From positions 1 to 64,000 of the forward strand of contig CANGMZ010000001.1 in the NCBI GenBank assembly GCA_947454715.1: DNA of 64,000 nt, read 5' to 3'. Of the stretch, positions 26,096-40,236 are shown piece by piece. A program made the position numbers and the translations under genes. Under the pieces are notes generated by a model. It was given only the letters and a program-made list of their open reading frames with translations. It was not told the DNA's origin and did not search any database. Position 1 is the stretch's first letter, and every line of letters begins with the position of its first letter. The DNA is from Chitinophagaceae bacterium. Its GTDB lineage: Bacteria > Bacteroidota > Bacteroidia > Chitinophagales > Chitinophagaceae.

Positions 26096-26103
26096 TATTT
26101 TTG
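26096..26103 (+). promoter_or_regulatory. -7 element (TAnnTTTG) for the rhomboid gene
   Basis: TATTTTTG, 4 nt before ATG 26108. Confidence 0.6.
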
Positions 26104-26107
26104 CAGT

Positions 26108-26953
26108 ATGGCAAATTTTGGTCAAGGCAGGTTCGCTGGTATTCCTCCTATAGTTAAGAATATCATCATCATCAATGTGCTTATTGTTTTCATACAATTT
26201 GTATTGGGGCAGAAGGGTATTGATTTGGGAGATTACTTGGGGCTGCACTACTGGCAGTCACCTAAATTCAGATGGTGGCAATTCCTAACACATATATTTA
26301 TGCATGGTAGCCCAAACGATTTGGGAATGACTATTTCGCATATATTCTTTAATATGTACGGTCTCTTTATGTTTGGGAGCATATTGGAGAATCTTTGGGG
26401 GGCAAAGCGGTTTATTATATTTTATCTTATTTGCGGTCTAGGTGCCGGGTTCTGCTATCTGGGTGTTCTGGGTTTTGAGTTTTCTTCCTTCCATAGCTCT
26501 TTTCTGCACTTTCAGGAGCATCCCACATTTGTAGAATATGGTCAATTTGTAAGGCATAACCGATTAGCAGATAATCCTTTCTTTGCTCAGATTCTGTCTT
26601 TTTGGGGGCAGAACAATGATTGTACTGATTGTGCAGGTGAGGCAATAAAAGTAATTAATGAATATTACTCAAAAATAATTAATATCGGCATGGTGGGGGC
26701 ATCGGGTGCCATCTTTGGTATCTTATTTGCCTTTGGCTATTTATTCCCTAATACAGAGCTATATATTATGTTTATACCGGTGCCTATAAAGGCAAAGTGG
26801 GCAGTAGCCGGTTATGCTGCTATTGAGCTTTTTTCGGGTATCGGCAGGTTTCAGGGAGACAATACTGCGCACTTTGCCCACTTGGGGGGCATGCTGTTTG
26901 CCTTTATCATACTCCGTTTTTGGCATAAGAAAGACCGTAACAACTTTTATTAA
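26108..26953 (+). CDS. Rhomboid-family intramembrane serine protease, catalytic residues retained
   Basis: GASGAIFG (Ser) and NTAHFAHLGGMLFAF (His) motifs. Confidence 0.93.
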   Translation: MANFGQGRFAGIPPIVKNIIIINVLIVFIQFVLGQKGIDLGDYLGLHYWQSPKFRWWQFLTHIFMHGSPNDLGMTISHIFFNMYGLFMFGSILENLWGAKRFIIFYLICGLGAGFCYLGVLGFEFSSFHSSFLHFQEHPTFVEYGQFVRHNRLADNPFFAQILSFWGQNNDCTDCAGEAIKVINEYYSKIINIGMVGASGAIFGILFAFGYLFPNTELYIMFIPVPIKAKWAVAGYAAIELFSGIGRFQGDNTAHFAHLGGMLFAFIILRFWHKKDRNNFY

Positions 26954-26968
26954 TAACTTTACAATCAA

Positions 26969-27862
26969 ATGGGAACAGGGCAGAGAAGATCAGCATTATC
27001 ATACATTCCGGGGTATAAGAACAACGGGGTGTTACAACTTATCATTGCGTCCGGAGTAGCTTACATGATGTTGGCTATCTGTTGGGCACTCGTGATGATT
27101 GTATTTGCAGGAGATCACAGCACTTTTGATGTATATTTTATTCCAAATATCGGGTTAACCAATGTTGCTGCATTTGCTGCCCATTGGTGGACTATCTTTA
27201 CTTATGGGCTTTTCCAGTTTCCTAACAGCTTTATGGAATTGCTGAGTAATATGCTTTGGTTGTACTGTTTTGGTTCTGTGGTGCAAATGTTGGTCGGTCA
27301 TAAGCAGGTTATACCTTTATATTTATATAGTTTGTTTGTTGGTGGTATTTTTTACTACATAGCACAGTTAATTCCTGGTAATCTGGGTCATGTGCCTGCT
27401 GCAGTATTAGGTGCCAGAGCAGGTTTGGTGGGTATGGCAGTGGCTGCTGTAACACTTACACCAAGCTATCGTTTTTACCTCACAGAAACATTTACCATAC
27501 CGTTGATACTGGTTGCAGGCGTTTTTGCAGCACTTATGCTACTCGGTAGCGGATTTTATATACCGGTGGTTATCATGATGGTAGCCGGAGGGCTCATGGG
27601 TTATGTATATGTGCAGCTGTTGCGTTCAGGTTACAAACCTGCAGACTGGGCATATAACTTGGGTAACAAAATAGAGGGTTTGGTTACTCCGTCTGATAAA
27701 AACATCAGCAAAAAGAAAGGACGTGTGATTAGCATGTACCAACCAAAACAAGGAATATCTCAGAGTCGTATTGATGAAATACTCGATAAGATTAACCAGA
27801 AAGGGTATAACTCACTGACAAAGGAAGAAAAAGAAATGCTGCTTAAAGCAGGTGGAGAGTGA
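26969..27862 (+). CDS. Rhomboid-family protein, predicted catalytically inactive, with C-terminal DUF6576-like tail
   Basis: Rhomboid topology, but GARAG replaces GxSxG and MVAGG occupies the AHLGG position; tail ISQSRIDEILDKINQKGYNSLTKEEKEMLLKA. Confidence 0.85.
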   Translation: MGTGQRRSALSYIPGYKNNGVLQLIIASGVAYMMLAICWALVMIVFAGDHSTFDVYFIPNIGLTNVAAFAAHWWTIFTYGLFQFPNSFMELLSNMLWLYCFGSVVQMLVGHKQVIPLYLYSLFVGGIFYYIAQLIPGNLGHVPAAVLGARAGLVGMAVAAVTLTPSYRFYLTETFTIPLILVAGVFAALMLLGSGFYIPVVIMMVAGGLMGYVYVQLLRSGYKPADWAYNLGNKIEGLVTPSDKNISKKKGRVISMYQPKQGISQSRIDEILDKINQKGYNSLTKEEKEMLLKAGGE

Positions 27863-39498: not shown

Positions 39499-40236
39499 AT
39501 GAAAAGATTACTGATAATATTGAATATACTGGTGCTTACTTCAATAGCAGCGCATGCACAGTTTGTGACTGCAGGTAAAATAGAGTACGAGCGAAAAATA
39601 AATCTTCATGCACAGCTAGAAGAGATGGAAGACAACGAGTGGTTTTCACGCATGAAAGCGCAAATGCCTAAGTTCACAATGTCATATTTCAATATGGCTT
39701 TTGATACGGCAAGAGTGAGTTATAAGCCCGGTAAAGAAGTGGAAAATCCGTTTAAAATGATGGGTGGTGGTCCGGCTACTGAGAATGTAGTTTATACAGA
39801 TCTCGTTGGCAAGCATGTAAAATCGGCTAAGTTGGTTTTTGAACAGAAGTATCTTGTTAATGATACACTACGCAAGTTAGAGTGGAAAGAAAAAGATGAG
39901 ATTAGAATCATTGCCGGTTACAAATGCCATAAAGCAGTGAGTATTATTTGTGATACCGTCTATGTGGTCGCATTCTATGCTGAAGACATACCCGTAAGTG
40001 GTGGTCCTGAAATGTTTGGTGGTCTGCCGGGTATGATTTTGGAATTAGCAGTGCCGAGGTTACACACCACATGGGTAGCTACTAAGGTGGAATTGATAGT
40101 GCCTGCAGAAACAGATTATGTGATACCGGATAAAGGCAAGAAGATGACACAGGATCAGCTTAATCTGAGCATTAAAGAAAGTTTCAAAAGCTGGGGTAAG
40201 ATTGCCTCCCGTAATGTTTGGTGGGTTGCACTTTAG
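39499..40236 (+). CDS. GLPGLI family protein
   Basis: MKRLLIILNILVLTSIAAHAQ signal peptide; FGGLPGMILEL signature; ATG 39499 preferred. Confidence 0.9.
   Translation: MKRLLIILNILVLTSIAAHAQFVTAGKIEYERKINLHAQLEEMEDNEWFSRMKAQMPKFTMSYFNMAFDTARVSYKPGKEVENPFKMMGGGPATENVVYTDLVGKHVKSAKLVFEQKYLVNDTLRKLEWKEKDEIRIIAGYKCHKAVSIICDTVYVVAFYAEDIPVSGGPEMFGGLPGMILELAVPRLHTTWVATKVELIVPAETDYVIPDKGKKMTQDQLNLSIKESFKSWGKIASRNVWWVAL

Follow-up and report, generated by a model that had tools for sequence, protein, structure and literature searches.

A retained DUF6576-tailed rhomboid of Chitinophagaceae that appears to have become a pseudoprotease repeatedly

Rhomboid pseudoproteases have otherwise been described almost only in eukaryotes, where iRhoms and Derlins are the examples, and sections of a 2025 superfamily review discuss dead rhomboids of eukaryotes (PMC12615303). 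The iRhoms carry GPx in place of the GxS motif (PMC6451368), and in the bacterial rhomboid AarA a proline change alone nearly abolished activity (PMC3149277). The best-precedented non-catalytic role for a bacterial rhomboid is that of B. subtilis YqgP, which still serves as an FtsH adaptor presenting MgtE when its catalytic serine is mutated, provided that its active site is unoccupied; the same study proposed that rhomboid pseudoproteases descend from proteases in which an adaptor function independent of catalysis was already in place (PMC7231995). Orphan membrane proteins, too, come under a quality control in which bacterial rhomboids take part (PMC7232013). A bacterial operon that joins an active protease with dead copies proposed as regulators is known from clostridial CspB and CspA-CspC (PMC6464247). 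In the literature searched, we found no dead bacterial rhomboid from Bacteroidota and no mention of DUF6576.

We analysed a 64,000-nucleotide stretch of a Chitinophagaceae genome (contig CANGMZ010000001.1, positions 1 to 64,000; hereafter the window) in which two rhomboid genes lie in tandem. The first, R1 (26108..26953 (+)), encodes an active-type rhomboid of 281 aa with H78, N82, S199 and H258 present, and its ORF translation displays the GASGA and AHFAHLGG motifs that an earlier note had read there. The second, R2 (26969..27862 (+)), starts 15 nt past the end of R1 and encodes a rhomboid pseudoprotease of 297 aa, in a reading frame that is uninterrupted, as had also been reported. By reading of the translations, the pair is flanked by what we take to be a gyrB-like gene before R1 and two CoA transferase-like subunit genes after R2. 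In the window's clade, R1 residues ~150-195 (26560-26700) form an insertion, roughly 50 residues in length and preceding the GASGA helix, which the shorter R1s of the family do not have.

Pfam identifies a Rhomboid domain in both proteins and DUF6576 additionally in R2. Residues 72-218 of R2, a six-TM core, match the superfamily profile PF01694 with 33 bits (cut-off 22.6), and 15/15 relatives examined match this profile too. An AF2 model of R2 built with 15 sequences is modest (pLDDT 70, pTM 0.59), such that the best TM-score to a target is 0.58, and it nevertheless points to the same fold: the first 26 PDB matches by Foldseek are all GlpG, with probabilities up to 1.00 and E-values of 0.03 or worse, and weak matches below these include iRhom and ERAD complexes. 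The model places 19 residues ahead of its first helix, a stretch of about 26 between the helices predicted at 20-47 and 73-82, and a C-terminal helical hairpin at 265-296. The cytosolic DUF6576 tail motif spans residues 260-291 (27746..27841 (+)) by Pfam and alignment. R2 thus has the makeup of the DUF6576 rhomboids of Bacteroidota (the R2 orthologue group), namely a rhomboid core followed by C-terminal PF20216 and a position adjoining R1. Its DUF6576 is the sole copy found in the window's genome, and because the two further rhomboids of that genome (L001 and L002) both keep GASG and the TM6 histidine, R2 is the only dead rhomboid found there.

When R2 is aligned to the active site of GlpG (H150, N154, S201 and H254; PMC2989971), only the oxyanion asparagine N94 (27248..27250 (+); GlpG N154) remains of the four catalytic-site residues. 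The TM2 histidine (GlpG H150) is replaced by E90 (27236..27238 (+)), which yields E-x-x-x-N instead of H-x-x-x-N, the catalytic serine (GlpG S201) by R150, encoded by AGA (27416..27418 (+)), and the catalytic histidine (GlpG H254) by M204, encoded by ATG (27578..27580 (+)). Consequently, R2 lacks both the TM4 GxSx serine and the TM6 histidine by which active rhomboid proteases (peptidase family S54) are recognized, and from the loss of these residues it is predicted to be catalytically inactive. The earlier note had placed the loss of the GASAG-type serine exactly, and relatives carry a GASxG serine at that position. It was likewise right that the catalytic histidine is missing, but its reading of the AHLGG position as MVAGG was off by one residue. 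In a 180-row alignment, AHLGG corresponds to M-M-V-A-G (203-207) rather than M-V-A-G-G (204-208), and the histidine column falls on M204, not V205, because the conserved G207 and G211 fix the register.

The R1-R2 pair is found across Bacteroidota, and R2 is present in 198/199 sampled Chitinophagaceae genomes and in all 95 genera. Outside this family, H-N-S-H is complete in 67/67 R2 loci (46/46 alignment rows plus 21/21 further loci across the phylum). Inside it, Ser or His is missing in 96 of the 131 rows that remain when a fragment (L166), a stop-containing copy (L167) and a paralogue (L044) are left out: 35 rows keep both residues, 41 keep His alone, two keep Ser alone and 53 keep neither. 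The neighbouring protein behaves uniformly, with Ser, Asn and the TM2 His of R1 kept in 158/158 rows covering these sites and its catalytic His in 159/159. Measured against these two uniform groups, the losses in R2 go beyond what chance would give.

On an R2 tree built without the motif columns, the intact/dead character changes 13 times (12-13 in bootstraps), and at least 10 of these changes are forced by well-supported branches, whereas loss of His needs a single change. With a uniformly intact outgroup, the changes are mostly losses, but where a single intact row lies inside a dead clade, a reversal may have occurred in some cases. The R2 of the window falls within a 41-row clade that is entirely dead, has support of 100 and sits on a long stem; R2 is dead in every genus member seen, each beside an intact R1. 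The loss is ancient in this clade rather than a fresh mutation of a single base, although AGA is, as the earlier note pointed out, one base away from AGC or AGT. In other dead clades, His is mostly retained and Ser alone replaced, by Gly, Asn, Ala or Thr, which suggests that Ser is lost first. The best reading of these patterns is a family-wide, recurrent conversion from protease to pseudoprotease. The earlier proposal that R2 is a pseudoprotease kept alongside an active rhomboid has also held up, given the inactive site across the genus and the 41-row clade, the purifying selection described below and the near-universal presence of the gene, and we have little doubt that selection maintains R2 as a genuine rhomboid pseudoprotease.

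A few loci depart from the general pattern. A member of the window's genus encodes a 282-aa DUF6576 rhomboid (L241; G002:C420) with intact H-N-S-H and low similarity to R2, and this gene is either paralogous or carried on a contig that is foreign to the bin. Another genome (G017) has two DUF6576 rhomboids (L044 and L046), of which one is dead and accompanied by R1, and the other is intact, lacks R1 and groups outside the family, possibly a horizontal gain of an active copy. Two further R2 genes, one with two in-frame TAA codons in a 1.9 Mb genome (L167; G120:C5:53806-54570) and one split over two frames (L166; G210:C11), seem to represent rare R2 decay or misassembly.

In our best explanation, a rhomboid pair exists throughout the phylum, and its second member, which bears the DUF6576 tail, gave up proteolysis on several occasions within Chitinophagaceae. 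The clade of the window lost the catalytic dyad in a single, ancient step, and its site was rebuilt: Arg or Gln took the place of the Ser, and Glu often that of the TM2 His. Most probably, the core of R2 serves to recognise client transmembrane helices, while the cytosolic DUF6576 tail would recruit a cytosolic partner, of which AAA proteases, FtsH for example, have the best precedent, and R2 would work alongside R1 in one pathway of membrane-protein quality control. We favor such a client-adaptor role with DUF6576 docking because of the YqgP precedent. By that analogy, the full arrangement, in which the core binds clients and the tail docks a partner within the pathway of R1, has in our estimate an even chance of being correct. 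The main doubt is that the window's clade fills the former active site with Arg or Gln, unlike the empty site of YqgP.

In the 41-row clade, position 150 is Arg in 16 rows and Gln in 12, position 90 is Glu in 27, and position 149 is Pro in 15/41, giving GPx, although the window itself has G-A-R. Members of the genus preserve Arg150 through AGA, AGG, CGT and CGC codons, and so constraint extends to the position where the serine used to be. An acidic residue at 90 accompanies a basic residue at 150 in 18/29 versus 1/12 rows (Fisher p = 0.002 with kinship ignored). Supported branches yield just four pairs that are independent, of which 2-4 agree with Glu90-Arg150 covariation and none is against it; this is not significant, and we treat the covariation as a lead only. 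A more specific account is that R2 lost catalysis many times independently, that an obligate non-catalytic role of core and tail predates these losses and is common to active and dead forms, and that the site in the window's clade was rebuilt as a buried Glu90-Arg150 pair. We offer this account tentatively, as somewhat less probable than the adaptor arrangement.

Linkage of R2 to R1 raises the chief rival explanation, in which R2 is a regulatory subunit that forms a heterodimer with R1 and determines how stable R1 is, how it is gated or which substrates it takes, much as CspA and CspC may act on their operon-mate CspB (PMC6464247). The genes are separated by only 13-15 nt across the window's genus, and the pair is preserved while flanking genes differ, which we also count in favor of the shared pathway proposed above; elsewhere it mostly has two conserved gene clusters (c1 and c2) downstream and several different upstream genes. 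An element, TATTTTTG (26096..26103 (+)), located 4 nt before the R1 start codon, matches the Bacteroidota -7 promoter consensus TAnnTTTG and has counterparts in most genus members shown. Elements of this type precede R1 by no more than 60 nt in 44/158 loci and R2 in 20/180, against a background of 37/795. Given this enrichment before R1, the pair is probably one transcript, and TATTTTTG is its probable operon promoter judging from the sequence match. The genes do not always form one operon, however, because in one locus (L042; G054:C38) the neighbours sit on opposite strands.

The fetched stretches contain R1 for 35/35 intact R2 rows and for 75/82 dead rows (two main groups), and of the remaining seven dead rows, three end at a contig edge, three come from genomes that carry R1 at another place, and the last, from G179, retains only an R1 remnant. 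Thus, R1 and R2 nearly always co-occur, and strict adjacency is not required. In the latter genome, the first 35 R1 profile positions alone remain upstream of a dead R2 with GAAAG (L217/L230; G179:C26 ~39932-40036), and R1 appears to be decaying. That the pair persists amid changing flanks, and that nearly all genomes with a dead R2 have R1, offers circumstantial support for a partnership between the two proteins. Against regulation of R1 by R2 stand this R1 remnant beside a dead R2, the wide separation of the two genes in three genomes (G228, G155 and G127), and a fused R1-R2 AF2 model (TAA read as Q) that reaches a pTM of only 0.44 without a usable interface. Moreover, the tandem arrangement is older than catalytic loss, and so the linkage is not specific to dead R2s. 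We therefore regard a regulatory subunit as the strongest of the alternatives, and yet as unlikely.

A second alternative, that the R2 core mainly anchors the DUF6576 tail in the membrane or supports it by thinning the bilayer, and has no specific clients, draws on the distribution of conserved residues. In the dead clade, the tail ranks with TM2 and TM4 among the most conserved parts, whereas decay is strongest in the loops and in the part of TM6 close to the lost His. We count the conservation of the tail in favor of the adaptor role as well: it provides 8/15 invariant R2 columns in a 27-row alignment, and its conservation is 3.09 bits in dead R2s versus 3.10-3.49 in intact ones. A passive anchor would have no need for conserved TM2 and TM4, nor for W97, Q106, P116 and N19, which are more fixed in the dead clade than in the outgroup. 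These features make the anchor hypothesis improbable.

More doubtful still is the idea that R2 continues to cleave, its nucleophile or base having moved to another position. Several polar residues are indeed conserved in the 41-row clade (N94, T75, T78, Y79, Y99 and Q106), but its membrane core has no Ser, His or Cys conserved to 80%, and the sole such Ser, S282, lies in the cytosolic tail. Furthermore, part of the clade has GPx, the type of change that nearly abolished AarA activity (PMC3149277). The conserved substitute elsewhere in the protein that would have overturned the earlier interpretation is therefore missing from the membrane core of this clade, and we reject a migrated nucleophile.

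Selection on R2 was assessed by pairwise NG86/YN00 estimates of dN/dS, of which only those from close pairs are trusted because dS is saturated in the remainder. Strong purifying selection is evident, consistent with the retention proposed earlier: the pair L007 and L008 gives dN 0.0037, dS 0.2675 and dN/dS 0.014, a pair from another dead lineage (L096 and L099) gives dN 0.020 and dS 0.91, and an intact pair (L089 and L095) gives dN 0.091 and dS 0.94. Between the window and L008, R2 is 82% identical and the active R1 only 68%, such that R2 is the better conserved protein in the window's genus, whereas over the whole dead clade R2 is the less conserved of the two (mean identity 0.44 vs 0.54). 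Although two family members (L167 and L166) have stops or frame breaks in R2, the open frame in nearly all family genomes, these low ratios, the clade-wide loss and an Arg150 that independently assembled genus members encode by other codons lead us to reject a recent single mutation, and likewise a decaying pseudogene or a sequencing error at 27416-27418, which are scarcely credible.

Returning to R2 as a selected pseudoprotease, repeated residue loss combined with near-universal retention suggests that this protein holds or hands over membrane proteins rather than cutting them. We found no account, in the literature searched, of a retained, repeatedly evolved, DUF6576-tailed series of bacterial rhomboid pseudoproteases within one orthologous group. 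Whereas the YqgP example is still catalytic, R2 offers a natural series from intact to half-lost to fully lost within one orthologous gene, with an always-intact R1 paralogue next door as a built-in control. This series would permit direct tests of what a rhomboid does without cutting and of how enzymes become pseudoenzymes.

R2 can be compared with several known systems. Like the metazoan iRhoms (RHBDF1/2), it has a rhomboid fold that has lost its catalytic dyad and is kept by selection, and 15/41 clade members even share the GPx motif, although the GAR of the window's R2 does not. The earlier label of iRhom-like is therefore apt as an analogy, but R2 is no iRhom: it has neither the iRhom homology domain nor the long N-terminal domain, carries a C-terminal DUF6576 instead, and is a bacterial protein that arose inside one family. 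Derlins are likewise rhomboid-like pseudoproteases, they serve in membrane-protein quality control, and the weak Foldseek matches of the R2 model include a chain from an ERAD complex. However, R2 has W74-T75 (WT) rather than WR at the loop-1 position and is nearest in sequence to bacterial rhomboids, whereas Derlins belong to the eukaryotic ER. The CspB and CspA-CspC proteins resemble R1-R2 in operon logic only, being soluble subtilisin-like spore proteins without homology to rhomboids. YqgP (GluP) is also a bacterial rhomboid with an extramembrane domain, and its FtsH adaptor role needs no catalysis (PMC7231995). It differs in keeping its catalytic residues and in bearing an N-terminal metal-binding domain, whereas R2 has lost the dyad, ends in DUF6576 and has only a conjectural tie to FtsH. 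A further comparison is with the intact DUF6576 rhomboids of other Bacteroidota, which are R2 orthologues with the same domain order, the same place by R1 and the same tail motif, and which differ from R2 in keeping H-N-S-H at every locus checked.
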